In this document: piece after piece, positions 3,737-47,163 of the stretch
Numbering within the stretch: position 1 is the first letter of the stretch
Layout of the letters: each line of letters begins with the position of its first letter
From: Eubacterium sp. 14-2
GTDB lineage: Bacteria; Bacillota; Clostridia; Lachnospirales; Lachnospiraceae
DNA length: 64,000 bases
Assembly: GCF_000403845.2 (NCBI RefSeq)
Contig: NZ_KE159567.1
Coordinates: 690,911 to 754,910, forward strand
Reading direction: 5' to 3'
Position numbers and translations under genes: made by a program
Notes under the pieces: model-generated
What the model was told of the DNA's origin: nothing
The model's database searches: none
The model's input: only the letters and a program-made list of their open reading frames with translations

Positions 3737-5065
3737 TTACGTTCTGACAGCCTTTCGGTAAATCAGCAGGGAACAGCCTGCTGTGACAAATTCAGAAAAG
3801 CAGAAGGCAGACCATACTCCTGCAGCTCCTGCAAACCGGCTGAACAGAAAGGCTGCCGGTATGATAATGACCACATAGCGCAGCAGCGAGATGTACAATG
3901 CGGGCTTTGCTTTTCCAAGGCCTTCCAGGGCCCCGGAGCTGGTAACGGAAACAGCAGATACAACAAAGCCCAGACTGATGATATGCAAAGCAGTTATGCC
4001 GATTTTGATGGTCTGGGGGCTGGTGGTAAACAGTCCGATTAACTGTCCGGGAATGATCCAGGAAAGCAGTGTTCCCACCAGCATGACCCCCATGATCAGT
4101 TTCAGGGAAGTGCGGTAGATTTCCCGTACACGTTCTGATTCTCCGGCTCCGTAATTGTAGCCCATCAGAGGACGGATGCCCTGAATAATTCCGTTGGCAG
4201 TCAGGTAAATAAAGGTCTGCAATTTGTAATAGGCCCCCAGCACCAGCACATAAGCTCCTGAAAAACCGGAGAGGATTCCGTTTAATACGGAAATCAGCAG
4301 AGAAGGCAGCGCCATGGTCAGTGTGGCGGAAACGCCGATGGAATACATTTTAGCGATAACTTCTTTCTCAGGCTTAAGGGCGCTCCGGCTTATTTTTAAC
4401 GGAATCGGCCGGAAAAAATAAAACAGGAGATATACCAGCAGAGAAAAACACTGTCCGATTCCTGTGGCATAGGCAGCGCCTGCAATTCCCATGGCAGGAA
4501 ATGGCCCAATGCCGAAAATCATCAGGGGATCCAGAATGATATTTGCGATAAATCCGCACATCATACAGAACATGGACACCTGCATACGCCCCACGGACTG
4601 GAAAATTTTTTCAAAAGACAGCCCCAACGTAATAAATACAGCAAACAGGAAGGCTCTGTTAGCATAAGCCAGTGCCAGCCGGATTACCGTTTCATCGGAA
4701 GAAAACATTCTCAGAAATGCAGGCATTCCCGCAAGGCTTAAAAGGGTGAGAATTACTCCGTGGAGGAAATTGAGAAACATGCCCTGAGTGGCAGCCTGAG
4801 TGGCCTGTTTCTGTTTTCCGGCGCCCAGATAAAAAGCGGCGCAGGCATTGATGCCGATGGCAAAACCAATGGCAATGGCGTTGATTAAATTCTGTACGGG
4901 GTAAACCAGTGCCAGCGCCGTCATGGCGTCTTCACTCAGTTTTGCCACAAAATAACTGTCCACAATATTATACAGTGAATTGACAGCCATGGAAATTACC
5001 ATGGGCAGGGACATGGACAGTACCAGCGGCAGTATCTTTTTTTCTTTCATAAATGTCTGATCCAT
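3737..5065 (-). CDS. MATE family multidrug/toxin efflux transporter
   Basis: Membrane antiporter (442 aa) of the MATE family, expected to export organic cations or drugs using a sodium or proton gradient. About twelve hydrophobic segments are visible, arranged as two similar halves, with the MATE-type N-terminus (LPLVLSMSLPMVISMAVNSLYNIVDSYFVAKL) and a polar GAYYKLQTFIYLTANGIIQGIRPLMGYNYGAG motif in the second half. The frame is open upstream, but the ATG at 5065 has AAAGGAG 7 bases before it and the upstream codons translate a leader hairpin. Substrate cannot be told from sequence. Expression is probably controlled by the leader at 5066-5273. Confidence 0.9.
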   Translation of the reverse strand: MDQTFMKEKKILPLVLSMSLPMVISMAVNSLYNIVDSYFVAKLSEDAMTALALVYPVQNLINAIAIGFAIGINACAAFYLGAGKQKQATQAATQGMFLNFLHGVILTLLSLAGMPAFLRMFSSDETVIRLALAYANRAFLFAVFITLGLSFEKIFQSVGRMQVSMFCMMCGFIANIILDPLMIFGIGPFPAMGIAGAAYATGIGQCFSLLVYLLFYFFRPIPLKISRSALKPEKEVIAKMYSIGVSATLTMALPSLLISVLNGILSGFSGAYVLVLGAYYKLQTFIYLTANGIIQGIRPLMGYNYGAGESERVREIYRTSLKLIMGVMLVGTLLSWIIPGQLIGLFTTSPQTIKIGITALHIISLGFVVSAVSVTSSGALEGLGKAKPALYISLLRYVVIIIPAAFLFSRFAGAAGVWSAFCFSEFVTAGCSLLIYRKAVRT

Positions 5066-5273
5066 AAATATACTCCTTTCAGAAAAATTCTGCTGTCTTC
5101 CTTGAATTTCGTGGTTTCTTCCATGCACGCTGTGCATAAAAAAAGCCACACAATTACAAAAGTAATTGTGTGGCGAAAAAGGCTGTTCCTTAAAAATCCA
5201 CGCTTCTGAACTTCCCCTGGGGACTGCAGAAGTTTTATGGTGTCAGTATGCCATACTTCGGAACCATTGTCAA
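5066..5273 (-). promoter_or_regulatory. promoter and attenuator-like leader of the MATE gene
   Basis: On the minus strand there is a promoter TTGACA (5273-5268), 17-bp spacer, CATACT (5250-5245). The leader then contains a CTTCTG/CAGAAG stem and a perfect 13-bp hairpin GCCACACAATTAC/GTAATTGTGTGGC (5174-5145) followed by seven T. That is an intrinsic terminator placed 72 bases before the start codon. A GTGG upstream could pair with the CCAC of the terminator arm to form an alternative structure. This layout suggests conditional termination (riboswitch or attenuation), but I do not recognise a known riboswitch class. Confidence 0.6.
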
Positions 5274-5389
5274 GCGGGCTGGGCGCTGATTCACAGAGGA
5301 ATGAAGTGAAAATGGGTTTTTACATATTTTATGTTCTCCCGGTATGACTGATTTCATGGCTGCTTTTTAGATTTTAACATAGTTTTTGT

Positions 5390-5568
5390 TAAATCGCCAG
5401 GGATTGTGTGATATAATATATATCCGGTAAATGAAACAGGCTTTTTTCTCCGGGAAAGATATGGTATGATGGAAACAGACCGGAAATACGCTGTTTTATC
5501 AGGAGGTGCCGGGTGTCCGGACGCCGACAGAAAGCTCTGGAATCGGCAATTGAAAGGAGAATCACCTC
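5390..5568 (+). promoter_or_regulatory. promoter and structured leader upstream of the VanZ-like gene
   Basis: A consensus -10 TATAAT lies at 5412-5417 with a weak -35 (TTAAAT) 17 bp upstream. The roughly 145-base leader contains three stem candidates: AACAG...CTGTT, GGTGCCGG...CCGGACGCC (one bulge) and GCCGA...TCGGC with an inner CAGA/TCTG. An AGGAGG-like sequence near 5500 has no good start codon after it in the vanZ frame. I cannot match it to a known riboswitch. The preceding 5274-5389 shows nothing recognisable. Confidence 0.4.
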
Positions 5569-6027
5569 ATGAAAAAATTTTTAACAGGAGCCCTGGTTCT
5601 TGGTTGGATGGCGGTTATTTTTGCTTTTTCCGCTCAGGATGCGGTGGAATCATCTCAGACCAGCCAGTCTGTGTCCTACCGGATTGCAGAACTTAAGAAT
5701 CGTCTGATGGGACAGGAAAAAACAGAGGACCAACTGTTGAAGCAGGCGGAAAGGATGCAGCTTGTTATCCGCAAGGGAGCTCATATGAGCGAGTATGGAC
5801 TGCTGGCCGTTCTGCTGATTTTTCATCTGGAATGTTATGATTTCAACGGCAGGAAAAAATTTCTGCTGGCGCTGGGGCTGGCGGTATGCTATGCAGCCTC
5901 CGATGAGTTTCATCAGCTGTTTGTGCCAGGGAGGGCCGGCAGGTTTGTGGATGTGTGCATCGACAGTTCCGGCAGTCTGGCAGGCCTGCTTTTGTATGAA
6001 GGAATTGTTTTGTTCAGAAAAAAATAA
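5569..6027 (+). CDS. VanZ-like integral membrane protein
   Basis: Small membrane protein (152 aa) with the VanZ-like signature: IRKGAHMSEYGLLAVLL, then ASDEFHQLFVPGRAGRFVDVCIDSSG. The conserved His, Asp, Glu and Arg of these motifs are present. There are an N-terminal membrane segment (residues 4-21) and three further hydrophobic stretches. The name comes from teicoplanin resistance clusters, but most members lie outside them and have unknown roles; no van genes are present here. A clear AAAGGAG precedes the start by 11 bases. The next gene begins 28 bases after the stop, so the two may share a transcript. Confidence 0.88.
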   Translation: MKKFLTGALVLGWMAVIFAFSAQDAVESSQTSQSVSYRIAELKNRLMGQEKTEDQLLKQAERMQLVIRKGAHMSEYGLLAVLLIFHLECYDFNGRKKFLLALGLAVCYAASDEFHQLFVPGRAGRFVDVCIDSSGSLAGLLLYEGIVLFRKK

Positions 6028-6054
6028 CAGTTACATGTGGGAGGAAGTTGTGAA

Positions 6055-7560
6055 ATGGATGTAAAGAAGAAAGAATACAACCGGGAAAAATCTGTCAATC
6101 AGTTTGTTCTTATGATTATGACAGTGATTGATTCATTTTTATTTTTTGGTTATATCAATGATTATCGGCAGGGACATATCGAATTCGGCTTTATGATTTC
6201 TGTGGTTCTCGCGGTTTTGAGTTCCCTTGCGGTCTCTTATGGAGTATTTCTGAAAAAACGGGATACCGGTGCGTTTAAACATGTGTCCATGGTGGGATAT
6301 ATGGTGGTATATGCGCTGGCCCTGTTCGGGGCCCGAAATGACCTGGTGTTCGTTATGGTATTTCCCCTGACCCTGATTTACATTCTCTACTACGATTATA
6401 AAATGATTTTACGAATTGCAGCCGGGTTTGGCGCCATCAATGTGGCTGATCTGATTTATGCGGTGGCAGTACTGAAACATATGCATTCCGGAAGTGAATG
6501 GAACAGTGCCTCTGTTTTGCTGCAGGGCGCGTCAGTGATTGTATATCTGGTGGTACTCTGCGGAACCACAAAACTGTCCAACCAAAATAATGACATGCGG
6601 ATTGCAAATGTGAGTGAAGAAAAAGAAAAAAGCGCAAGACTTCTTCAGGATGTGCTGGAGGTGGTTTCTGTGGTCCGCCAGAATTCTGAAGATGCAGAGG
6701 ACTTTATTCAGATTCTGAGCCAGAATATTGCATCCGCTGCGTCTGCGCTGGGAGATATTTCAGCAGGAAACAGCAGCAATACGGAAAATATTGGCAAACA
6801 GACGGTTATGACGGAAAATATACAGAACATGATTCTGAAAACCAGGGAAATGTCTGATGAAATGCTGGAATTATCCAGGCAGTCTGCAGAGGCGGTAAAA
6901 AACGGGCAGAATTCTGCTGATGACCTGCACAGACAGTCGGAAAAGACCAGAGAAGCCAATGAACAGGTGGTGGTTTCTGTGAATGGACTGATTGAAAACG
7001 CCGGGGCTGTGGAAGAAATTACTGAGCAGATTTTTAACATTTCAAGTCAGACAAATCTGCTGGCGCTGAATGCTTCTATTGAGAGCGCGCGGGCGGGGGA
7101 AGCAGGCCGGGGCTTTGCGGTTGTGGCAGAAGAAATCCGGATGCTTGCAGATGAGAGCCGGAAGCTGACGGAAATGATTCAGAAAATTGTGTCAGAAATA
7201 AAGCAGAATGCGGATGCGGCCAGATATACGGTGGATCATGTAATGGAAGTGACCCATGAGGAACGCAGACTGATTCGCAGTACGGAACAGCAGTTTTCCA
7301 GTATCGGAGAAAAAATGGATGGGCTGGATCAGAACGTGCAGGAGATATATCATAAAATTGATGAAATTTTCACGTCAAATCAGGTTATTGTAGACAGTAT
7401 TAATCAGATATCTGCAGTCAGCCAGGAAGTATTTGCCAGCACTCAGCAGGCGGTGGAACTGGGAGAAGATGCCAGCCGTCAGGCAGAGCAGGTGAGGGAT
7501 TGTATGAAGGAGCTGAAAAGGACGGTGGCTTCTGTGGAGCAGTACAGGGCAGAAGGATAA
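6055..7560 (+). CDS. methyl-accepting chemotaxis protein with polytopic N-terminus
   Basis: Chemoreceptor (501 aa) that would signal to CheA/CheW. The N-terminal 190 residues hold about six hydrophobic segments (for example [20 protein letters not shown]) without a large extracellular sensor domain and without an obvious HAMP domain. The rest is a long coiled coil with the conserved signalling tip around [20 protein letters not shown] and [24 protein letters not shown] start at 6037 is possible, but GGGAGG lies 10 bases before the ATG at 6055. No other chemotaxis genes are in the window apart from a second receptor at 61583-63232. Confidence 0.92.
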
Positions 7561-7644
7561 CAATGGCACTGGGCATAACCCCGGACTTTTGCGGAATGGC
7601 ACGGGCCAAAACGATAAGGGTGGTGGGGACAGAAGGGAAGAACT

Positions 7645-7698
7645 TTACATTTTTCTTACATTTTCCTGCATACTTTTTTCGGAATATCCGATTATAAT
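7645..7698 (+). promoter_or_regulatory. response-regulator operator repeats and promoter
   Basis: Three direct repeats with an 11-bp period start at 7645, 7656 and 7667 (TTACATTTTTC, TTACATTTTCC and a weaker TGCATACTTTT). They are followed by -10 TATAAT at 7693-7698, with no good -35. An 11-bp repeat array in place of a -35 is the arrangement of PhoB/OmpR-type activator sites. The next gene is an OmpR-family regulator, so positive autoregulation is a reasonable inference. Confidence 0.55.
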
Positions 7699-7796
7699 AA
7701 CAGCAGATATGATATAAGCCGAAGTGAGCGCAGATAATCATGACTCCGGCATAAATATTGATACAGGTCACAGACCAGGGAAGGACCGGATGAAGG

Positions 7797-8459
7797 ATGA
7801 TAAAAATACTCATTGTGGAAGATGACGCAAATATAGCGAAACTGATGGAAGCAACTGTGGCAATCGGCGGATATGAGGGGATTGTATGCAGCAATGGTGC
7901 AGAGGCCTTTGAAAAAATTGAACGGGGCGGATATGACCTGATACTGCTGGATGTGATGCTGCCGGACATGAGCGGGTTTGAAATCATACAGAAGCGCACC
8001 AGTACAGATACCCCGGTGATTTTCATTACCGCCAGGCAGGAACTGACAGATAAGGTGAAAGGACTGCGGCTGGGAGCAGAAGATTACATTGTAAAACCCT
8101 TTGAAGCCATGGAACTGCTGGCCAGGATTGAAGTGATTCTGCGCAGGGTAAAACGGACAGAGACTACATATTCTTATGGAGACATTTCCGTAAATGTGGA
8201 GGAACACACCTGTAAATACGACGGAGAGGAAGTCTATCTGACGCCCAAGGAATTTGAGGTTCTTGTATTTTTCATTCAGCACAAAGATGTGGCCATTTCC
8301 CGGGACCGTCTGCTGGCGGCAGTCTGGGGCTTTGAATATGAGGGAGAGACGCGGACCATCGACATCCATATTCAGCAGCTTCGCAAGAAACTGAATCTGA
8401 AAGAGAAGCTGGTAACAATTCCCAAGCTGGGATATCGGCTGGAAAGCGCAAAGGAGTGA
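7797..8459 (+). CDS. OmpR/PhoB-family response regulator
   Basis: Two-domain DNA-binding response regulator (220 aa). Residues 1-115 form the receiver domain, with acidic pocket Glu8-Asp9-Asp10, phospho-acceptor Asp52 (LILLDVMLPD), Thr78 and Lys100 (IVKPF). Residues 125-218 are a winged-helix domain ending in TIDIHIQQLRKKL...TIPKLGYRLE, typical of the OmpR class. The start has AAGGA just upstream. The kinase gene begins 4 bases after its stop, so the pair is an operon. The 11-bp repeats upstream are its most likely binding site. The stimulus is unknown. Confidence 0.94.
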   Translation: MIKILIVEDDANIAKLMEATVAIGGYEGIVCSNGAEAFEKIERGGYDLILLDVMLPDMSGFEIIQKRTSTDTPVIFITARQELTDKVKGLRLGAEDYIVKPFEAMELLARIEVILRRVKRTETTYSYGDISVNVEEHTCKYDGEEVYLTPKEFEVLVFFIQHKDVAISRDRLLAAVWGFEYEGETRTIDIHIQQLRKKLNLKEKLVTIPKLGYRLESAKE

Positions 8460-8463
8460 CGGG

Positions 8464-9879
8464 ATGAAACTGTGGCAGAAAGTTTTTCTGTATACTCTGA
8501 TACTGGTGATGCTGGCGGTAAGCATGACCAGTATTTTGCTGTTGAAAAACAGTTTTTCTTTTGCATTAAATCAGAAAAAACAAAGCGTGTACAGTGAGCA
8601 TGAATTTCTGGTGACCAGTTTTAAAAGTATGATGATTACGGAACGTCTGAAAGAAAATGCCATTGTGCTGGAAGAAAAGAAAATGAAAAAATTTATGGAG
8701 AATACCTTTGGCAAAAACACCGAAGGCAGCGGAATTCTGTTCAAAAATGCACAGAATGAACAGGTGTATGCCAATCGTGACATGGATCCGCCGGAAGAAC
8801 TGACGGAAGCAGTCCGCAGTACGGGAAAGAGTTATATGCAGGTGGAGGGAAACCGCCTCTACACAGCTTCTTCAGAGAGCATGGAAGGCAGAACTTATTA
8901 TGTGGTGACAGAAAACGATATTTCTGATGTGATGGAAATTCATGAGAATATGCTGTGGCAGATCCAGGTCATCAGTATGGTGTGCGCCATGGTAATTGCA
9001 CTGATTCTGCTGGTGGTGGTAAAAATGCTGCTGCATCCCCTGAAAAAAATAAATGAGGGAACCAGAGCCATTGCCCAGGGCAGTTATCAGAAACGGATTC
9101 CGGAACGGGGAAAGGATGAACTGTCTGAACTGGCCTGTAACATGAACTGTATGGCGGAAGCCGTGGAAACCAATGTGCGCGCTCTGGAACATGTGGCGGA
9201 GGACAGAAAACATTTCATTGACAACCTTTCCCATGAAATGAAAACACCCCTTACCTCCATACTGGGATTTTCCGATTTGCTGCAGATAAAAAAAGATATT
9301 ACGGAAGAACGGCGGATTGAGTATGCCGGAATTATCAAAGCGGAGGCCACCCGTATGCGCACCCTCTCCGGAAAACTCATGGAACTGATTACCGTAGGGG
9401 AGACCAATCTGGACTGGCAGCAGGAAGATATGCAGAAACTGTTTCTGGAAATCGGAACCTCCCTGAAGGTCATTACGGAAAAACGGAAAATGGAACTGGT
9501 GTGCGAATCAGAGCCGGGTACTCTGCGGGCAGACCGGGAACTGATGAAATCTCTCCTGTATAATCTGGTAGACAATGCGGTGAAGGCTTCCGTAGAAGGA
9601 GGCTGCATTCAGGTAACGGGCCGCTTTGTGGGAGAACAGTTTCAGATCCGTGTATCAGACCAGGGAGTGGGAATTCCGCAGGAAGAAATTGAAAAAATTA
9701 CCCAGGCTTTTTATATGGTGGATAAAGTGAGGGGACGGGCCAATGGCGGCGCAGGCCTGGGGCTGGCCCTCTGTCAGGAAATTGTTTCTCTTCACCAGGG
9801 AACCATGAAATTTGAAAGTCGTTCAGGAGAAGGGACTCAGGTGCTGATTTCCATGAAAGGAGGCCGGGAATGTGATTAA
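8464..9879 (+). CDS. sensor histidine kinase
   Basis: Membrane kinase (471 aa), partner of the preceding regulator. Order of parts: transmembrane helix (9-29), an extracytoplasmic sensor region of about 130 residues, a second helix (167-189), HAMP (190-243), HisKA with phospho-acceptor His257 in NLSHEMKTPL, and an HATPase domain with N box (LVDNAVKAS), G1 (DQGVGIP) and G2 (GGAGLGLAL). All catalytic boxes are intact. Its last codons overlap the next gene by 8 bases, so the third protein probably works with this system. Confidence 0.94.
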   Translation: MKLWQKVFLYTLILVMLAVSMTSILLLKNSFSFALNQKKQSVYSEHEFLVTSFKSMMITERLKENAIVLEEKKMKKFMENTFGKNTEGSGILFKNAQNEQVYANRDMDPPEELTEAVRSTGKSYMQVEGNRLYTASSESMEGRTYYVVTENDISDVMEIHENMLWQIQVISMVCAMVIALILLVVVKMLLHPLKKINEGTRAIAQGSYQKRIPERGKDELSELACNMNCMAEAVETNVRALEHVAEDRKHFIDNLSHEMKTPLTSILGFSDLLQIKKDITEERRIEYAGIIKAEATRMRTLSGKLMELITVGETNLDWQQEDMQKLFLEIGTSLKVITEKRKMELVCESEPGTLRADRELMKSLLYNLVDNAVKASVEGGCIQVTGRFVGEQFQIRVSDQGVGIPQEEIEKITQAFYMVDKVRGRANGGAGLGLALCQEIVSLHQGTMKFESRSGEGTQVLISMKGGRECD

Positions 9880-10909
9880 AATAAAGTCCATGGCTCTGAC
9901 TTTTCTGTGTGCGGCTATTATTCTGGGAGCCGGTTACCTTGTGATTGTGGAAAGCGGGAAAAAAGTACTGGAAAAAGAGAGAATCCTGGAAGAAACCCGG
10001 TATGAGAGCACCAGTTCCAATATTTTTTATGGGAAAATCGAAGAAGATATCGAGCTGTTTCCCTGGAATTACTACCCGGACAATGAGACCGTGTCGGAGG
10101 TTTATCCGCAATTTTACCAGATGCTTCTGGATTACGGGGACAGTATGGAAGAAGCAAAGGAAAAAACGGACTGGTATCTGTATCAGATGATTGCCTGTGA
10201 AAGCCATGAGCGGGTGGAAGATATCTGGAAGGTTTATCAGAAAAAACAGAAAAAAATTGTGGACAGCCTGGTTATGACAGAAAATTCTCCCATAGGCCCT
10301 GTTTATTTTTATCAGGATATGCTGGAAGTGAATCAAAGCCAGTATCAGGTACGGATTGCCTGCAGTGAATGGCATATTGTAAGTTTTATCTGTCAGGAAA
10401 TCAGTGCAGAAGAATGGGACAGGGCCCGCTGGGAGGAGGGGAAGGACAGACTGGCAAAAACGCTGGAGGAATCAGAACTGGAGCTGGCCGCCTGTTTCGA
10501 CTATATGGTGCTGATGAGCAGTCAGGATCTTTTTACCATGTATGATGAAGACGGGCATTACATCCACGGCCATTTGGCGGGACTACGATGGCTGGACAAT
10601 ATTCTGGAAGGGAACGTGGATGAGGAAGATATGCCCCAGGAGCTTAGCGACCTGATGAAAAACCGGGGAGTTTCCTACAGTGAGGAGAAAGACAGTGCTG
10701 CCAGCTCAAAGGGAATGGAATACGATAAGGAGGTTACTGCTGTGCAGCCGTCAGGAGAGGTATTGGAAGAAACAGAAGGTTATTCTTACCAGATTGTGGA
10801 ATTAAAAGACATGATACTGCTGCTGATGCAGGGAGAACATACCATCGGTATTTATTATGACCCGGTGAGGCAGCGTTTTTGCGGTTACAATTATTTTAAT
10901 GAATATTAA
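9872..10909 (+). CDS. membrane-anchored protein of the two-component operon, function unknown
   Basis: I do not recognise this 345-aa protein. It has one N-terminal hydrophobic segment (about residues 8-25, LTFLCAAIILGAGYLVIVES) and an otherwise soluble, acidic extracytoplasmic part; no lipobox cysteine is evident. The start is a GTG with AAAGGAGG 9 bases upstream, lying inside the kinase gene. The overlap implies translational coupling and a role linked to the kinase, for example as a signal-sensing or inhibitory partner, as auxiliary proteins do in other three-gene systems. That role is inference from position only. Confidence 0.7.
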   Translation: MIKIKSMALTFLCAAIILGAGYLVIVESGKKVLEKERILEETRYESTSSNIFYGKIEEDIELFPWNYYPDNETVSEVYPQFYQMLLDYGDSMEEAKEKTDWYLYQMIACESHERVEDIWKVYQKKQKKIVDSLVMTENSPIGPVYFYQDMLEVNQSQYQVRIACSEWHIVSFICQEISAEEWDRARWEEGKDRLAKTLEESELELAACFDYMVLMSSQDLFTMYDEDGHYIHGHLAGLRWLDNILEGNVDEEDMPQELSDLMKNRGVSYSEEKDSAASSKGMEYDKEVTAVQPSGEVLEETEGYSYQIVELKDMILLLMQGEHTIGIYYDPVRQRFCGYNYFNEY

Positions 10910-10936
10910 ATTTTTCGAAAGCCTTTGAAAAAGCAG

Positions 10937-10965
10937 TTGTGCTATTGAACTCCCTGGCTTATAAT
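10937..10965 (+). promoter_or_regulatory. promoter of the clpX-like gene
   Basis: TTGTGC (10937-10942), 17-bp spacer, TATAAT (10960-10965). It lies 49 bases before the clpX-like start codon and is the only good promoter in the 105-bp gap. Confidence 0.6.
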
Positions 10966-11014
10966 AAAGTCATGTTTCGGATATGAAGTTCGAAAAGAAA
11001 AAGGAGATTTCAGG

Positions 11015-12538
11015 ATGAAAGATAATTTTGACGATACAGATTTCCGGGAGGTGGTTTCAGATTCCGGAGAGACAGAGGAACATACGGAGTCAGAAGCTGG
11101 AGACAGCAGTGACGGAAAGGAAGGGAATTCCGCAGTGGACAGCCAGGACAGTGCAGAAAGTGAATACGAAGATATCTGCTATATCTGCCACCGGCCGGAG
11201 AGCAAGGCCGGAAAGATGATTAAGATACCAAATGAAATCTGTATCTGTGCGGACTGTATGCAGAAAACCTTTGACAGCATGAATCATGGAGGATTTCCTC
11301 TGGGAGATATGAGCAGTTTCGGGAACATGCCAAATATCAGTATGATAAATCTGTCAGATTTACAGAATATGGGCATGAATATGGTGCCCAGAAGCCAGAA
11401 ACTGAAAAAGAAGAAATCAAAAGAAGAAAAGAAGGAAAAGCCCGTGCTGGATATCAAATCCATTCCGGCTCCCCACCGGATTAAGGCCAGCCTTGACGAA
11501 TATGTGGTGGGACAGGAACATGCCAAGAAAGTCATGTCCGTGGCAGTTTACAACCATTACAAACGGGTGGCCTGCGATAACCTGGACGGAGTTGAGATTG
11601 AGAAGTCCAATATGCTGATGGTGGGGCCCACGGGAAGCGGAAAGACCTATATGGTGAGGACTCTGGCAAAACTTCTGGATGTGCCTCTTGCCATTGCAGA
11701 CGCCACCTCCCTCACAGAAGCCGGATATATCGGAGATGACATTGAAAGCGTTGTTTCCAAACTGCTGGCTGCTGCCGATAATGATGTGGAGAAAGCAGAG
11801 CATGGAATTATTTTTATTGACGAAATAGACAAGATTGCCAAGAAAAAGAATACCCATCAGCGGGATGTGAGCGGAGAGAGCGTACAGCAGGGAATGCTCA
11901 AACTGCTGGAGGGAGCTGAAATAGAAGTGCCGGTAGGAGCCAACAGCAAGAATGCAATGGTGCCGCTGGCCACAGTGAATACCAGAAATATCCTGTTTAT
12001 CTGCGGCGGTGCATTTCCTGATCTGGAAGACGTCATTAAAGAGCGTCTGAATAAAAAGTCTTCCATGGGATTCCATGCGGATCTGAAAGATAAATACGAT
12101 AAGGAAGAGAATATTCTGCACCGGGTTGAAGTGGAGGATATCCGCAAATACGGGATGATACCGGAATTTCTGGGACGTCTTCCCATTATATTTGCACTGG
12201 ATGCCCTGACAGAAGATATGTTGGTACGGATTCTGACGGAGCCGAAAAACGCCATTGTCAAACAGTATCAGAAGCTGCTGGCCATGGATGAGGTGAAACT
12301 GGAATTTGAAGAAGGGGCGCTGCGCTCCATTGCTGAGAAGGCCAGACAGAAGGATGTGGGCGCACGGGCGCTCCGGGCCATTATTGAAGAATTCATGCTG
12401 GACATTATGTATGAGATTCCAAAAGACGACAACATTGGAGTGGTAACCATTACCAGAGATTATATTGAAAATACAGGAGGCCCGGTCATCAGTATGCGGG
12501 GCTGTCTGAATCTGGAGGATAAGACAGCGCTGGCATAA
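11015..12538 (+). CDS. divergent ClpX-like AAA+ unfoldase
   Basis: ClpX-related ATPase (507 aa, about 80 longer than typical ClpX) expected to unfold proteins for ClpP. It begins with an acidic extension (1-52), then a four-Cys zinc site (Cys55, Cys58, Cys78, Cys81) and a Met/Asn-rich plus Lys-rich linker. The AAA+ module has Walker A GPTGSGKT (204-211), pore loop GYIG (237-240), Walker B IIFIDE (265-270) and GARALRAIIEEFMLDIMY near the end. MGF at 351-353 sits where ClpX has its IGF ClpP-docking loop. The Arg-Lys-His loop that grips ssrA tags in standard ClpX is replaced by SKN (311-313). I therefore read it as a specialised paralogue rather than the housekeeping enzyme. A subtilase gene follows after 48 bases. 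Confidence 0.85.
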   Translation: MKDNFDDTDFREVVSDSGETEEHTESEAGDSSDGKEGNSAVDSQDSAESEYEDICYICHRPESKAGKMIKIPNEICICADCMQKTFDSMNHGGFPLGDMSSFGNMPNISMINLSDLQNMGMNMVPRSQKLKKKKSKEEKKEKPVLDIKSIPAPHRIKASLDEYVVGQEHAKKVMSVAVYNHYKRVACDNLDGVEIEKSNMLMVGPTGSGKTYMVRTLAKLLDVPLAIADATSLTEAGYIGDDIESVVSKLLAAADNDVEKAEHGIIFIDEIDKIAKKKNTHQRDVSGESVQQGMLKLLEGAEIEVPVGANSKNAMVPLATVNTRNILFICGGAFPDLEDVIKERLNKKSSMGFHADLKDKYDKEENILHRVEVEDIRKYGMIPEFLGRLPIIFALDALTEDMLVRILTEPKNAIVKQYQKLLAMDEVKLEFEEGALRSIAEKARQKDVGARALRAIIEEFMLDIMYEIPKDDNIGVVTITRDYIENTGGPVISMRGCLNLEDKTALA

Positions 12539-41629: not shown

Positions 41630-41656
41630 ACATTTTTTCCTGTTTTACATAAACTG
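41630..41656 (+). promoter_or_regulatory. candidate sigma-K-like promoter of the split sleC-type gene
   Basis: AC (41630-41631), 16-bp spacer, CATAAACTG (41648-41656), close to the sigma-K pattern AC-N16/17-CATAnnnTA. It lies 30 bases before the start codon, and no vegetative promoter is seen there. Mother-cell sigma-K control would suit a cortex-lytic enzyme. Short motifs of this kind arise by chance, hence low confidence. Confidence 0.35.
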
Positions 41657-41685: not shown

Positions 41686-42411
41686 ATGCAAAATCATCAA
41701 TTGCGTGCAGTCCAGACAGACCAGGTGGACAACGGAACCATGAAAGTTCAGGTAACTTCCACTCTGGGGCTGATTCCGGTGGAAGGCGCCACCATTACCA
41801 TTTCCTATACCGGAGATCCGGAGAGTACCCTGGAACAGATTTCCACTGACGGGGAAGGCCAGTCAGAGGTACTTACTCTGGCAGCGCCGCCGCTGGAATA
41901 CAGTATGGAGCCGGAGCAGCCTGTTCAGCCTTATGCGGAATATACCGTGCAGGTGGAGGCGGAGGGGTATCGGCCCGTCAGTATTGAAGGAGTGGATGTG
42001 TTTTCCGGAGAGCTTTCGCTGCAGAATGTGCGGATGGAGCCTCTGGAGGTATCGGAGCAGGATACGAAAAATATTGTGATTCCCGCCAACACACTGTTCG
42101 GAAATTTTCCGCCCAAAATTGCAGAGGCAGAGATTAAGCCGGTGGATGAGAGCGGGGAAATTGTACTGAGCAGAGTGGTGGTTCCGGAGTATGTGGTGGT
42201 ACATGACGGAGCTCCGGGTGACTCTACTGCCAGTGATTACTATGTGAAATACAAGGATTACATCAAAAATGTGGCTTCCAGTGAAATTTATGCCACCTGG
42301 CCGGACAGCACCATACGGGCCAATATTCTGGCGATTATGTCTTTTACCATGAACCGTGTATATACGGAATGGTACCGAAATCACCATATATTCAGGTCTT
42401 TCGTTCACTGA
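41686..42411 (+). CDS. sleC: spore cortex-lytic enzyme (SleC type), 5' half of an interrupted gene
   Basis: N-terminal part of a SleC-type cortex hydrolase that degrades spore peptidoglycan during germination. Codons 1-230 are genuine, ending in NRVYTEWY; the frame then runs into element DNA and stops after 11 foreign codons (HHIFRSFVH end). Features are an N-terminal pro-region, VPEYVVVHDGAPGDS and the SpoIID-like catalytic start KNVASSEIYATWP with candidate Glu200. The C-terminal part of the domain and the peptidoglycan-binding domain are 4.2 kb away (46578-47163). Joined at GTACCG the product would be 423 aa, the normal SleC size. As it stands the protein is incomplete and probably inactive. 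Confidence 0.88.
   Translation: MQNHQLRAVQTDQVDNGTMKVQVTSTLGLIPVEGATITISYTGDPESTLEQISTDGEGQSEVLTLAAPPLEYSMEPEQPVQPYAEYTVQVEAEGYRPVSIEGVDVFSGELSLQNVRMEPLEVSEQDTKNIVIPANTLFGNFPPKIAEAEIKPVDESGEIVLSRVVVPEYVVVHDGAPGDSTASDYYVKYKDYIKNVASSEIYATWPDSTIRANILAIMSFTMNRVYTEWYRNHHIFRSFVH
42372..42396 (+). other. left attachment junction (attL)
   Basis: GTACCG, then the inner repeat AAATCACCATATATTCAGG (42378-42396). Its reverse complement matches the sequence inside the right end with about three mismatches over 19 bases. The centre of symmetry of the two inner repeats falls on GT, the first two bases of the hexamer, which I predict as the crossover dinucleotide. Confidence 0.75.
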
Positions 42412-42587
42412 TTTTTAACGAGTTAATCATTAAATTACACGGTAAAAAAGGGTACGAATTAGTTTAAAAAGGAATGCTGTAATCTGTTTTTGGAATATCT
42501 GAATTATTGTATGTAATTCTTGAATCTCTGTCTTTTAAACGCTCACGTCTAATCTGCAATCCCTCTCGTGAATTTTCGTCAAAGTAT

Positions 42588-42771
42588 TTATCTCGAAATT
42601 TCAGTTTCATGGCAAGGCACGAATAAAACGTGTAAATGTGGATTTTCCTCGTCCATGTGGCAACTCCAGGAAACAATATTCTCACTGCCAGACAACTTTT
42701 CGGTTATTTCTACCATATCTTTTTTCCAGTCATTTATAATTCTTGATTGATACCAGATAAGGAGAAAAACA
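42588..42771 (-). pseudogene. relic of a MOBV (Mob/Pre) relaxase
   Basis: Read on the minus strand, the sequence encodes WKKDMVEITEKLSGSENIVS and then CHMDEENPHLHVLFVPC before a stop at 42590-42588. The HxDExxPHxH-VP block is the metal-binding motif of MOBV relaxases. Only about 60 codons remain and no start with a ribosome site is seen, so the gene is dead. It suggests that the element descends from a mobilisable one. Confidence 0.65.
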
Positions 42772-42785
42772 ATATAAAAAGCATA

Positions 42786-42908
42786 TTGAAAAAAGTTTTT
42801 GCATATGCTATAATGCCAACAGGCAAAAAGAAATCACAAGTCCATGCGGACAAGAAGCGAATCCCCAAACCGTGTTGCAGCACAGTTTGGGGATTCTTCT
42901 TTTTTTTA
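42786..42908 (+). ncRNA. predicted antisense RNA (antitoxin) with promoter and terminator
   Basis: Promoter TTGAAA (42786-42791), 17-bp spacer, TATAAT (42809-42814). A transcript starting near 42821 would end at a strong terminator: GAATCCCCAAAC/GTTTGGGGATTC (42859-42896) plus a long T-run to 42908. The RNA of about 88 bases has no reading frame. It converges on the toxin-like gene at 42931-43029 and would pair with the 3' part of that mRNA, as SR4 does with bsrG and RatA with txpA in Bacillus. Confidence 0.7.
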
Positions 42909-42930
42909 TAGTGGCAAAGTATCCACCAGG

Positions 42931-43029
42931 TTAGTTGTTGCTCTTATCGTCACTGTCTAACCATTTGATGATGTAGTGGCAAACTACACCAGCCAAAACA
43001 GCAACTAAAAAAGAAATCACAACTTCCAT
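42931..43029 (-). CDS. small hydrophobic peptide, type I toxin-like
   Basis: 32-aa peptide: MEVVISFLVAVLAGVVCHYI followed by a charged tail (IKWLDSDDKSNN). One membrane helix with a polar C-terminus is the layout of type I toxins. AGGAGGT lies 6 bases before the ATG, and a -10 TATAAT (43080-43075, minus strand) is upstream. The convergent antisense RNA supports the assignment. It would depolarise or disturb the membrane if the antitoxin RNA were lost, penalising loss of the element. Toxicity is inferred. Confidence 0.7.
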   Translation of the reverse strand: MEVVISFLVAVLAGVVCHYIIKWLDSDDKSNN

Positions 43030-43333
43030 GCAAACACCTCCTCCCTGTTGCGGGTGTCGGTGAGCAACACGAAAATTATAACATACTATTCGATATTTTT
43101 GTACTTTTATCTCAGGAATTTGTTCTTAGGATTTTGGCTATAGCAATCCGATGCTCGTTATTCCTGTGGACACTGACCCCCTGGCAATTTTCTTAGTCAA
43201 TATCTAATTTTACATCCGAGAAGGATTGTTCCCCGATTCTGTATCTGTTTTTCCTGTTCGGTGTCTGATACTCTAAGATATCATTTTAAAAAATCGGGTG
43301 CAGGAATAATAGCGGAAAGGAACTGATTTAAAA

Positions 43334-43362
43334 TGGACAAAACGGATAACAGGGAGTATAAT
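43334..43362 (+). promoter_or_regulatory. promoter of the Ig-like secreted protein gene
   Basis: TGGACA (43334-43339), 17-bp spacer, TATAAT (43357-43362). The preceding 43085-43333 holds no gene or motif that I can support. Confidence 0.6.
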
Positions 43363-43446
43363 TCTGGATAAGAAGAAATTTTCCAAAAATGACCGATATT
43401 TCACAAAGATGAAATGTTTGTATATATTTATGAAAGGGGAATGATT

Positions 43447-44001
43447 ATGAAAAACATCATCAGAAAATCAATCACAACTGTTATCATCATGGCTTTAGCT
43501 TTGACACTTGCTATGCCTGTTACCGCACAGGCGAAAGGTAAGACAAAAATAAAAATCAACAAAACAAAAGTCACTTTGACAATCACAAAGAAAAAGACAA
43601 AGCCGACTGTTCAGTTGAAGGTAAAGGGAACATCCGGTAAAGTGAAGTGGACGGCCTCTAATAAAAATGTTTCAGTGTCTGAAAAGGGCAAGGTGACCGC
43701 TAAGAAAAAGGGTACTGCTGTTGTAAAAGCGAAAGTAAATGGGAAAACTTTGCAGTGCAGGGTGACTGTAAAAGATAGCCGGAAACCTGTAAATAAGCCA
43801 GAACCCCCGAAAGAGTGCCAGCATGTGTGGGTTGAGAAGACTATTGTAGAAATCGTGTGCGAATGTGGAGAAGTTTTCTATGACGACAATGCACGAATCT
43901 CACACAACCGTCAATTCGTACTACAAGGTTTGAATGGACATTCATTCAGTACAAACGAACACACTTACTACGAATGCTCGAAATGTCATAAGACAAAATA
44001 A
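43447..44001 (+). CDS. secreted Ig-like (Big2) protein with C-terminal Cys/His motif
   Basis: Element cargo gene (184 aa). A signal peptide (IIRKSITTVIIMALALTLAM, cleaved near TAQA) leads into a very Lys/Thr-rich region and one bacterial Ig-like domain (INKTKVTLTI...KWTASNKNVSVSEKGKVTAKKKGTAVVKA). The last 60 residues carry CQH, CECG, several His and CSKCHKTK, resembling a zinc ribbon. It has no cell-wall anchor. AAAGGGG precedes the ATG at 43447. Possible roles are surface adhesion or metal binding; none is proven. Confidence 0.75.
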   Translation: MKNIIRKSITTVIIMALALTLAMPVTAQAKGKTKIKINKTKVTLTITKKKTKPTVQLKVKGTSGKVKWTASNKNVSVSEKGKVTAKKKGTAVVKAKVNGKTLQCRVTVKDSRKPVNKPEPPKECQHVWVEKTIVEIVCECGEVFYDDNARISHNRQFVLQGLNGHSFSTNEHTYYECSKCHKTK

Positions 44002-44003
44002 TG

Positions 44004-44039
44004 AAAAAACCTCCTGCTGAGAAGTGGGAGGTTTTTTTT
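44004..44039 (+). terminator. terminator after the Ig-like gene
   Basis: AAAACCTCC/GGGAGGTTTT stem followed by eight T in all. Confidence 0.88.
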
Positions 44040-44325
44040 GACCGGGATAATGCCCCCTAAATTCTGTTATGGACACACTTTCTGCTTTGGTAAATACGCA
44101 CAAATTCATCTAATTATTTTATGCGATTTTTCGGGTTAAAATTTCCCCGGAACATCCGACATTCGATGTGATGATAAAAATTGAATAGAAATACAGTTAC
44201 AACTGTGATTCCACAGGATTGTATGTAAGCGTAACCAACATATCTATCATCCAGATATTAGGTGCTTATATAAGTCTGGGGGGAATAATGAAATTATAAT
44301 GATTTCACATGGGGTATCCATTCTG

Positions 44326-44353
44326 ATACCAGTTATGGGGAAATCCATATAGA
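44326..44353 (+). promoter_or_regulatory. candidate sigma-E-like promoter upstream of the recombinase
   Basis: ATA (44326-44328), 17-bp spacer, CATATAGA (44346-44353), similar to the mother-cell sigma-E pattern ATA-N16/18-CATAyAAT. The gap 44040-44460 otherwise shows scattered AT-rich sequence, including a TATAAT at about 44295 without a -35. This is a weak call, noted because the skin recombinase gene of B. subtilis is mother-cell controlled. Confidence 0.2.
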
Positions 44354-44460
44354 GGATGATTCTAAGCAACTTTCTGTATAAAAAGATTAAGCGGACAGTG
44401 TGACAGATATAAGACCTGGATTATCAGTATTTAGGCTTTGTATTTGTCGTACTGTCTTTT

Positions 44461-44856
44461 TTGTTTGATTTTTTCAAATTCAATACAGAAAGCAATTTGA
44501 AAAAGAATGGTTCAGAATACGAGGATATAGTTGTCAAAGAAAATACTTGCGAGTGCAATTGGAAAGACACAATCAAAATACCCCACTTAAAGATGTATCA
44601 GGAAAGTACATATCTTCATAAAAAGAATCCTGCTGTCGCATGGGACAAAATTTTTCGGAATAGTAATAGGATAAGACTTATTTGCCCGGAGAATCTCATG
44701 TCTGGCATTGCTTATCAACAAATTACAGAAGAAAAGAATGGCATAAAGATTGTGGTTGAGTTCCCCACACATTCGGAACAGACAGACATTTTACGTCAGG
44801 AAATAAAGTCTGTTCTTTCCTGTGTATTACGGGAACAATTACAAAAAAATTCATAA
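44461..44856 (+). CDS. hypothetical protein upstream of the serine recombinase
   Basis: An open frame of 131 codons, 50 bases before the recombinase. The only early start is TTG without a ribosome site; the first in-frame ATG is codon 44, so the true start is uncertain. The sequence contains a CECNWKD stretch, PHLKMYQEST and GIKIVVEFPTHSEQTD. No family is recognised. Its place beside a large serine recombinase makes it a candidate recombination directionality factor, since these are small and unrelated in sequence. That is a guess from position. Confidence 0.5.
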   Translation: MFDFFKFNTESNLKKNGSEYEDIVVKENTCECNWKDTIKIPHLKMYQESTYLHKKNPAVAWDKIFRNSNRIRLICPENLMSGIAYQQITEEKNGIKIVVEFPTHSEQTDILRQEIKSVLSCVLREQLQKNS

Positions 44857-44906
44857 CGCAGGCAGAGGGTTATATCCCTCTGCTGATTAGAAAGGACCAT
44901 TGACTT

Positions 44907-46553
44907 ATGAAAAAAGTAAGAATGTTATTGCGTGTCAGTTCAAATCAGCAGTTAGAGCCAGACGGTGATTTGAGCGTACAAAGAGAGCTTGTAAAAGATT
45001 ATGTAAAAAAATATGAGGAATGGCAGCTTGACACAAAAGAATATTTTGAGGGAAGCAACAGTGGATATAAAAATTCAGTTGCAGACAGAAATGTACTTCA
45101 AGAAGCCTTACAGGACGCACAGGCAAAAGAATATGATATTTTGGTAGCATATAAAGACGACAGGATTGGCAGACGTATGTGGGAAATCGGCTCCTATGTA
45201 ATGGCTCTGAAGAAATTTGGCGTGGATATTTATACCGTGAAAGACGGCTGCATTTCGCCTGAAACAGATGATACAATGGGACAGATGATGTTAGCCTTGA
45301 GATATGGAAATGCACAGAAACAAAGCGCTGATACGGGTATGCGTGTAAAGGATACCGCCCAGAAGCTGGTGCAGAAAGGAAAATTTATGGGCGGAAAAGC
45401 TCCTTATGGTTACAAATTAGAGCTATCAGGAGAAATCAGCAAGCATGGACGTGCGTTACACCATCTTGTCATTGTCCCGGAAAAAGCAGAGGTTGTCAGT
45501 TATATCTATGACCTGTCTCTCAATAAGGAATATGGCTCTGCCAAAATCGCTAAAGTTTTGAACGGGCATGAAACTTATAAAGACCTTGCCCCCAATGACA
45601 CATGGAAAAGCGGAACAATCACAAGTATTTTGACGAATCCCATCTATACCGGACATACAGCTTATAAACGCAGAGAACGAATCAACGGACAATATCACAG
45701 GCTTGACAGCAAGGACTGGATTACTTCTTTTGACGCAAATGAAAATATTGCAATTATTGACGAAGATACATGGAACAAAACGCAGGAAAGACGTAAACGC
45801 CGGGGTGATAAATACATAAAAGCGTTAGAACATAAGGAGGTGAATGTGATTAGAAAGAATGACGGTATGTTAGCCTTAATAGATGTTTTATACTGCGGCT
45901 ATTGTGGAAGTAAAATGACAAATGGAAGTAAATATAACTATTGGACGATAAAAGATACCGGGGAAAAAAGAGCGAGTAAAATTGCAGTTTACAAATGCCA
46001 AAAAGCATGGCAGGGAGTACCGCATGATAAGACCAGACAAATCCGAGCCGATACGATTGAACCGATTGTATTTGAATCCATTGCAAAATACATTGGGAAA
46101 TTACAGGAAAATGAAAGTATCTTTCACGAGATTGAAAACAATCAGAATCAGGAGAAGAAACGTAAGCAAGCGGACTTAAAAAAGGAAAAACAGAATCTTT
46201 TAAGCATTCAGGACAAGATTCATATTATGGAAGAAAATATTCCAAACGCCATGACCGGCGATTATCCTTTGTCATTGGAAGAACTGGTAACAATTATCAA
46301 AAAGCACAAAGAACAGGCGCAACAGCAACAAGAGGTCGTTACATTAAAGGAAATGGAATTAAAGAACACTTCTGTAACAATCGACGAATGGGAAGATATA
46401 AAAAATAAGATTCCAACATGGCAGGATGTATTTTTAAATGCAGATGTGGCAACCAAGCGAGTATTGGTAAATAAGCTGGTAGAACGTATTGATGTAAAGA
46501 AAACAGAAGTCGTTATTCGCTTTAAAATCAACCTGAATGACTTCATTTCATAA
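44907..46553 (+). CDS. large serine recombinase of the element
   Basis: Site-specific recombinase (548 aa) expected to integrate and excise the element. The N-terminal resolvase domain has Ser11 (LLRVSSNQQ) as nucleophile and AYKDDRIGRRM with the conserved Arg residues. The recombinase domain (GGKAPYGYKL...SGTITSILTNPIYTG) is followed by a zinc ribbon (LYCGYCGSKM ... YKCQ) and a long coiled coil (about 405-480) that controls direction in this family. It resembles SpoIVCA, the skin recombinase, in size and layout. The stop is 24 bases before the right GTACCG. AAAGGA precedes the start. Confidence 0.93.
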   Translation: MKKVRMLLRVSSNQQLEPDGDLSVQRELVKDYVKKYEEWQLDTKEYFEGSNSGYKNSVADRNVLQEALQDAQAKEYDILVAYKDDRIGRRMWEIGSYVMALKKFGVDIYTVKDGCISPETDDTMGQMMLALRYGNAQKQSADTGMRVKDTAQKLVQKGKFMGGKAPYGYKLELSGEISKHGRALHHLVIVPEKAEVVSYIYDLSLNKEYGSAKIAKVLNGHETYKDLAPNDTWKSGTITSILTNPIYTGHTAYKRRERINGQYHRLDSKDWITSFDANENIAIIDEDTWNKTQERRKRRGDKYIKALEHKEVNVIRKNDGMLALIDVLYCGYCGSKMTNGSKYNYWTIKDTGEKRASKIAVYKCQKAWQGVPHDKTRQIRADTIEPIVFESIAKYIGKLQENESIFHEIENNQNQEKKRKQADLKKEKQNLLSIQDKIHIMEENIPNAMTGDYPLSLEELVTIIKKHKEQAQQQQEVVTLKEMELKNTSVTIDEWEDIKNKIPTWQDVFLNADVATKRVLVNKLVERIDVKKTEVVIRFKINLNDFIS

Positions 46554-46554
46554 T

Positions 46555-46583
46555 CCCGAATTTATGGTGATTCCCTTGTACCG
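46555..46583 (+). other. right attachment junction (attR)
   Basis: Inner repeat CCCGAATTTATGGTGATTC (46555-46573), then CCTT, then GTACCG (46578-46583). Reverse-complemented, the inner repeat matches that of attL. To the right, the sequence continues as GAACAAAGGC of sleC. GTACCG lies in the same codon phase (TAC CGG) as at the left end (TAC CGA). Confidence 0.75.
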
Positions 46584-47163
46584 GAACAAAGGCTATGACT
46601 TTACCATTACATCTTCCACGGCCTATGACCACAAATGGGTGTACGGGAGGAATTATTTTTCCAGTATTTCCCGTGTAGTAGACGAGATGTTTACCAATTT
46701 CCTGTCCAGACCCAATGTGAAACAGCCAATCCTGACCCAGTATTGCGACGGGCAGCGGGTGACCTGTCCCAACTGGCTGAGCCAGTGGGGGTCCAAATAT
46801 CTGGGAGATCAGAATTACAGCGCCATAGAAATCCTTCGTTATTATTATGGAAATAACATGTACATCAATGAGGCAGAAGAAATTTCCGGTATCCCGGCTT
46901 CCTGGCCACGTGAAAATCTGCAGGTGGGCTCCAGAGGCGATAAAGTGCGCCAGATGCAGGAACAGTTAAACCGGATTGCTCAGGTCTATACCTCCATTCC
47001 CAGAGTGGCGGCAGACGGAGCTTTCGGTCCGGCCACGGAAAGAGCTGTCCGCAGGTTCCAGTCGGTTTTCGGGCTGCCCCAGACCGGAGTGGTGGATTAT
47101 GCCACCTGGTATAAAATTTCCGAGATTTATGTGGGAGTTACCAGAATCGCGGAACTTACTTAG
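46578..47163 (+). CDS. sleC: spore cortex-lytic enzyme (SleC type), 3' half of an interrupted gene
   Basis: Carries the rest of the sleC-type frame: the second part of the catalytic domain (NKGYDFTITSSTAYDHKWVY, VVDEMFTNFLSRPNVKQPIL) and a C-terminal peptidoglycan-binding domain (LQVGSRGDKVRQMQEQLN ... DGAFGPATERAVRRFQSVFG). It has no start or ribosome site of its own; upstream codons in this frame (from 46537) lie in element DNA and read over the end of the recombinase gene. After excision it follows codon 230 of the 5' half in frame. It ends at TAG, and a palindromic repeat then serves as terminator. Confidence 0.88.

Follow-up and report, generated by a model that had tools for sequence, protein, structure and literature searches.

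The window analyzed here is a stretch of 64,000 nucleotides from Eubacterium sp. 14-2 (Lachnospiraceae; contig NZ_KE159567.1, positions 690,911 to 754,910), in whose 3.99 Mb genome the spore cortex-lytic enzyme gene sleC lies in two parts with an intervening element of 4,206 bp between them (42372 to 46577 of the window). The 5' part (41686 to 42371, plus strand) comprises codons 1-228 and two bases of W229. Its open reading frame (ORF) departs from the sleC sequence after TGGTA, within codons 229-230, and continues past the break into the element, where its stop ends at 42411. The 3' part (46578 to 47163, plus strand) encodes the C-terminal peptidoglycan-binding domain and carries the stop codon. 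Rejoined at the common GT, the halves yield 1,272 bp or 424 codons with a single terminal stop, whereas the two alternative joining phases run into stops at codons 262 and 229. An earlier reading of the window made from its letters alone (hereafter the sequence-only reading) had placed the halves and the insert at these same positions and proposed this join, and both were reproduced. Its description of the insertion as precise, in phase and of recombinase type is likewise supported by the sequence, with a recombinase gene located at 44907-46553.

We assigned the split gene to sleC because its intact relative in genome G026 matches PDB entry 9h68_A ('Spore cortex-lytic enzyme pre-pro-form') over residues 13-422 (E 7.7e-126). 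The rejoined window protein is identical to the G026 protein at 415 of 424 positions, stop counted, and the break falls within the conserved region that PDB 9h68 covers. A second, intact sleC in the same genome, a possibility raised by the sequence-only reading, was not found, each half returning one match only (E limits 1e-3 and 1e-20). Judged by homology and promoter type, the gene is sporulation-specific, and the element divides it into two in-phase parts.

The sequence-only reading had also drawn attention to the string GTACCG at both breaks. The string is real (TGGTACCG at 42370-42377 and TTGTACCG at 46576-46583), but the match of CCG is incidental and the core common to all compared genomes is GTA only. 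The left attachment core is TGGTA (42370 to 42374) and the right one GTA (46578 to 46580), and the GT that they share (42372-42373 and 46578-46579) is likely the crossover dinucleotide. The element ends carry the two arms of a predicted dyad, ATTC at 42390 to 42393 and GAAT at 46558 to 46561 (cores and arms all on the plus strand), which would read GAAT-N16-GT-N16-ATTC in the attachment site of the free element (attP). TGGTA was present at the left break in all 30 distinct split sources, that is 40 left junctions minus 8 same-genome repeats and minus 2 rows of G342, in which host-like sequence continued across the site up to a contig end; ATTC stood at the dyad distance in 22 of these 30. In all 15 complete elements the right end reads G|TA. 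Sixteen bases separate GAAT from the GT that follows it in 13 of them, and GT from a following ATTC in 12, the exceptions being G376 (TCGA in both arms), G018 (GAAA on the right) and G011 and G015 (ATTT on the left). Similarly, TGGTA was found at the same place in 20/20 of the intact genes listed. On a viral contig encoding a recombinase 63% identical to that of the window (L168, IMGVR_UViG_3300032007_000029, 145.8 kb), GAAT-N16-GT-N16-ATTC stands unbroken beside the recombinase gene (counted by eye), as would be expected of attP.

The element does not always lie the same way round. In G025 and its close relatives it is reversed, and the recombinase adjoins the left half. The arms of this reversed type are as in the window. 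The centre, by eye, is AC when read along the element itself and again presents GT to the host; this would match the expectation for a serine recombinase with direction set by the central dinucleotide. Loci L021, L067 and L165, set beside the window, appear as one element family in sleC in opposite orientations, with GT or AC at the attP centre relative to the recombinase.

Empty sites, for which the sequence-only reading had proposed to look in related genomes, do exist. The flanks of the filled G025 and the empty G026 are 98.9-100% identical and align with a three-base overlap at the break; G025 rejoined at GT equals the G026 sleC in all 1,272 bases, so that G026 carries exactly the product predicted for G025. 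In the protein database, three intact proteins (P0012-P0014) lie one or two residues from the rejoined protein of the window. Among the matches listed, 8 of 62 split-type left halves have an intact protein counterpart whose left half is at least 99.5% identical (7 at 100% and 1 at 99.6%). Both states of sleC thus occur in near-identical backgrounds, a comparison that does not indicate the time of the change. Precise integration of a mobile element into sleC, in a form that could be exactly reversed, is well supported by these sequences.

We then asked how widely the arrangement occurs. The 5' half of sleC was found in 29/29 genomes of the genus, which by open frame are split in 14, intact in 14 and cut off in one (G022); the 3' half was found in 27/29, the misses being G022 (74% complete) and G027 (82% complete). 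Full relatives of the recombinase are encoded in 12 of the 29, all of them split (46-100% identical, the window's own included). In two further split genomes, G009 and G027, the contig ends at the break with recombinase fragments identical to the window's, and recombinase sequence is therefore present at the break in 14/14 split genomes. No recombinase match was obtained in the other 15 genomes of the genus at E 1e-40. Beyond the genus, the 5' half was present in 250 of 397 family genomes searched, a set from which no frequency is taken. The best 80 of at least 434 relatives in public genomes were taken as named loci and comprised 55 intact genes, 17 split at codon 229 (hereafter site 1; one of them, L067, also at a second site), 5 split at the second site only, one broken further on (L112) and 2 left unassigned. 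Public contigs also carry split forms commonly, with P0179 present on 405 of them and P0182 on 316. Overall, sleC split at codon 229 recurs in many related species and is not a lone accident. Chance as the source of the observed arrangement is excluded by the recurrence of the same break and the same core in many other genomes.

The second site lies at about codon 295, where the core is TGA and the halves, by eye, are in phase. Its recombinases, where compared, are 25-28% identical to that of the window (L078, L084, L093, L165), and its inserts range from about 2.6 kb (G252, G280) to about 61 kb (G015, from match coordinates). Second-site splits include those of [Ruminococcus] torques ATCC 27756 (L093) and Anaerostipes butyraticus (L084), together with loci L078, L063, L097, L154, L155, L157-L159, L162, L163 and L171-L172. 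Genes split at both sites were found in G011, G015, L067 and L165, and in L166 on a partial contig. In L112 (3171-3401), which was counted apart, sleC continues across the second site and is interrupted some nine codons beyond it.

Besides the recombinase, the insert of the window encodes an immunoglobulin-like (Ig-like) protein, a possible type I toxin-antitoxin module and a small ORF. The large serine recombinase (44907 to 46553, plus strand) has 548 amino acids with Resolvase, Recombinase and Zn_ribbon_recom domains, and R9, S11, D85, R86 and R89, which we take to be catalytic, are invariant in 15 aligned sequences. A reading of the G012 recombinase as broken by a TGA was dropped, its frame being open over 633 amino acids. 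Directly upstream of the recombinase gene lies the small ORF (44461 to 44856, plus strand), a candidate recombination directionality factor. By BLAST its cluster is found in 9 of the 15 complete elements, always immediately 5' of the recombinase, and the remaining elements have a small-ORF core judged comparable by eye. A database search with it returned 11 relatives, none with a functional name; we presume a likeness to TnpW-type proteins. The cargo includes the small Ig-like protein (43414 to 44001, plus strand), whose Pfam and NCBIfam matches are below cut-off and which is also present in larger relatives of the element. The candidate toxin-antitoxin module (42846 to 43064, minus strand) consists of a 32-residue membrane peptide (42934-43029, minus strand; NCBIfam CD_typeI_toxin, E 0.022, under cut-off) and a strong terminator-like hairpin facing it (z -5.6), with an Rfam SpF66_sRNA match under the gathering score (E 3e-5). 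Such a module could retain the element in growing cells.

No phage structural, packaging or lysis genes were found among the scanned ORFs of the window. The five ORFs in the site-1 insert of L165, a 7.4-kb relative, gave PHROGs matches for the recombinase and the Ig-like protein only, the latter to Ig domains of phage structural and tail families. That relative also encodes a Mob_Pre relaxase and a Rep_OBD plasmid replication protein, and for this reason the element group looks plasmid-like rather than phage-like, its larger member not having the look of a defective prophage. The relaxase and Rep clusters (cl7 and cl4) recur in G025 and L067; neither protein is among the ORFs of the window copy. 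Within L165 itself (4285-12335), an IMG/VR 'viral' contig, sleC is broken at both sites and the insert with relaxase and plasmid Rep sits at site 1. The elements of L022, L027, L028 and L031 differ widely in cargo, which by eye we take to include a nucleotidyltransferase/HEPN pair, part of a beta-galactosidase and a DNA methyltransferase.

Several observations point to mobility. The recombinases of G025, G028, Hominisplanchenecus (L067) and L165 (a contig from a viral collection) are 99.5-99.9% alike at the DNA level, whereas the sleC left halves of the same four are 60-76% alike; because near-identical recombinases sit in diverged sleC genes, the elements move between species. Related recombinases also occur on viral contigs. 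Mapped on the sleC tree, the split state requires 10 changes among 28 rows (mean with shuffled labels, 9.7), at least 5 of which are forced by supported branches. Vertical inheritance as a general rule was rejected, given the scattered split state and the near-identical recombinases in diverged hosts. Synonymous divergence (dS) for L068 and L071 was 0.50 in the recombinase versus 1.29 in sleC, which looks like transfer. For G000 and G025 it was equal in both genes (0.58); we did not use this as proof of co-descent because the two elements lie in opposite orientations.

Despite being split, the sleC halves remain open. No internal stop was found in any of 27 split left halves or 15 split right halves; the right half was outside the fetched stretch for 8 of the 27 (G027, L096, L068, L071, G391, G060, G191 and G231) and is split again in 4 (G011, G015, L067 and L165). 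G011 and G015 share the site-1 element, and in each of them sleC is interrupted at the second site as well; over their three sleC exons they differ by 67 synonymous and 7 nonsynonymous changes (ratio of nonsynonymous to synonymous divergence, dN/dS, about 0.03). In an unconstrained gene, about three differences in four are expected to be nonsynonymous. Purifying selection on the split sleC genes is thus supported by sequence comparison. The second-site inserts of this pair diverge soon after the junction.

The region upstream of sleC bears on when the gene would be read. Its -10 region (41648 to 41656, plus strand) reads CATAAACTG in the window and, in most relatives, the sigma-K-type CATANNNTA. 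The latter stands 37-42 nt before the sleC start in 25/27 genomes of the genus (shuffled rate, 1.8%), and 23 of the 25 also have AC a further 16-17 nt upstream. The two without it are the window copy and G025, both with CATAAACTG, in which the last base differs. The sigK gene is one uninterrupted frame (299.9 bits versus a family cut-off of 298.65). In C. difficile, sleC is described as sigma-K dependent and essential for germination (PMC3789822). Given this promoter type, the uninterrupted sigK and the C. difficile report, SleC would be made late and in the mother cell. The sequence-only reading had applied the logic of the sigK skin element to the locus. The promoter and the intact sigK fit that logic; the element has turned out to be less unique than was thought, being a member of a large group with fast movement.

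We consider it probable that the element is excised in the sporulating mother cell, where it would rebuild sleC much as skin rebuilds sigK. In this reading a small integrative element, which seems to be a reduced relative of mobilizable elements of plasmid-like type, has entered sleC at W229-Y230 by means of its own recombinase. The enzyme would recognise the dyad around GT, and precise removal would restore TG-GT-A and the full frame. We infer that removal is timed to sporulation and takes place in the mother cell, possibly with the product of the small upstream ORF as helper. SleC for the spore would then be made by this dying cell, and the forespore chromosome would retain the element. Excision in the mother cell would cost the element nothing, because that cell dies. 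More tentatively, and with rather less confidence than for excision itself, sleC may be a developmental integration hot spot of gut Lachnospiraceae, used by two recombinase lineages, one borne on plasmid-like elements at codon 229 and the other at about codon 295, sometimes together, so that one SleC would need two programmed mother-cell deletions.

A number of results weigh against programmed excision. The intact forms that coexist with split ones may simply be strains without the element. Three SleB/CwlJ-domain (PF07486) proteins encoded in the genome could stand in for SleC. In G011 and G015, recombinase dS (0.158) is lower than sleC dS (0.28 in exon 1 and 0.37 in exon 3; 0.13 in the short exon 2), and cargo dS runs from 0 to 0.24, with two cargo genes almost identical (0-0.004). 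Because recombinase and cargo are less diverged than sleC, the site-1 element may have reached G011 or G015 after the species parted. Across five polarised sister pairs, nonsynonymous/synonymous counts (N/S) were 36/239 on split and 23/257 on intact branches (p 0.07), a hint of slight relaxation in the former. Turnover is fast, and most insertions may therefore be so recent that open halves are no proof of function. A promoter scan of 13 elements found no sporulation promoter that stands out before the recombinase: strict sigma-K-like sites were not enriched (13 seen versus 10.2 expected; relaxed pattern, 33 versus 25.7), and sigma-E-like sites were enriched (7 versus 2.1 expected) with none before a recombinase. 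A strict sigma-K-like site before the small-ORF core in G025 (element position 1939, minus strand) and a position-conserved AC-N18-[CA]ATA motif before that core were left unused, the stretch being coding in some elements. Finally, searches of plasmid and phage records and of IMG/VR turned up no free circle. A close recombinase was absent from plasmid records (one record, at 25% identity) and phage records (two, at 25-26%), the 7.4-kb element had no match in plasmids, and an attP pattern had no exact match in IMG/VR.

Much of this evidence would also suit a plain mobile element for which the conserved sleC codon pair serves as chromosomal attachment site (attB), sleC being silenced and its loss tolerated through other cortex hydrolases or rare reversion, with no developmental timing. 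The rapid gain and loss and several recent transfers mean that open halves could reflect youth, the PF07486 proteins offer substitutes, N/S is slightly higher in split lineages, the G011/G015 element may be younger than the species split, and serine recombinases are described as often residing in conserved genes of other kinds (PMC10083194). Such an account is harder to reconcile with the low sleC dN/dS of G011 and G015, split at both sites as they are and sharing a site-1 element, with the absence of internal stops among the split halves examined, and with the use, by different recombinase lineages, of two sites in one gene whose promoter is of sigma-K type. We regard it as unlikely, if still to be taken seriously. 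The element might instead leave and re-enter at low frequency during growth, so that a subset of cells makes germination-ready spores in a form of bet-hedging. Split and intact forms with the same left half among the matches listed, and intact proteins that differ from the window's rejoined protein by one or two residues, would fit such a stochastic switch, as would yin in yabG of C. botulinum, for which excision in a fraction of the culture is reported at every time point (PMC10747680). However, this coexistence may equally reflect strain polymorphism, and we think a stochastic switch quite improbable. The idea that the halves act as separate cooperating proteins, with no DNA rearrangement, draws on the start codons that both halves have in the assembled sequence, but it is very improbable: no ribosome-binding site was seen before the right-half ATG (46537), which is located inside the recombinase gene, and the conserved region spanned by PDB 9h68 is itself cut. 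In other genomes the sequence before the right half is unrelated, the element there being reversed.

In a commensal genus about half the species have this one germination gene split, and the family as a whole shows two such sites in it. Genome annotation may score such genes as broken and wrongly infer lost germination. If the hot-spot proposal holds, element occupancy may set which spores germinate and when. The empty, filled, reversed and double states are natural replicates in which control of gut commensal spore germination by mobile DNA could be tested.

The open-licence PubMed Central (PMC) literature, a scope that leaves subscription papers and preprints aside, yielded no element in sleC, in agreement with the sequence-only reading, and no spore-former gene split twice; the targets that it showed are sigK, spsM, spoVFB, gerE and yabG. 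A close parallel is skin in sigK of B. subtilis and C. difficile, a serine recombinase element that splits a mother-cell sporulation gene and is removed with precise in-frame rebuilding. For C. difficile, a small directionality factor is reported under sigma-E and SpoIIID (PMC5025042). Unlike skin, which targets a regulator, the 4.2-kb sleC element targets a germination enzyme gene, has a plasmid-like relative, and follows a timing that we infer. The gin element in gerE of B. cereus ATCC10987 is, similarly, described as non-phage and as relying on the serine recombinase GirC together with an additional factor, GirX (PMC5595907), yet by that account it measures 28.6 kb and has three recombinases and a 9-bp shared sequence, in contrast to one recombinase and a GTA core in the sleC element. 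In yabG of C. botulinum V73, yin also affects a late sporulation gene of Clostridia and encodes a recombinase with a putative directionality factor, but it is described as a prophage present in one strain only (PMC10747680), whereas sleC elements are widespread and the site-1 ones examined are not phage-looking. SPbeta in spsM and vfbin in spoVFB likewise interrupt sporulation genes, and spsM is reported to be rebuilt by excision of its element (PMC10747680, PMC4191935); their target genes are different and the elements are prophage-like. Outside the spore formers, the heterocyst elements of cyanobacteria belong to another kind of development, other hosts and other genes, but they too can place several recombinase elements in one gene, as described for 10 of 87 interrupted genes, with four in nifD (PMC4874684).

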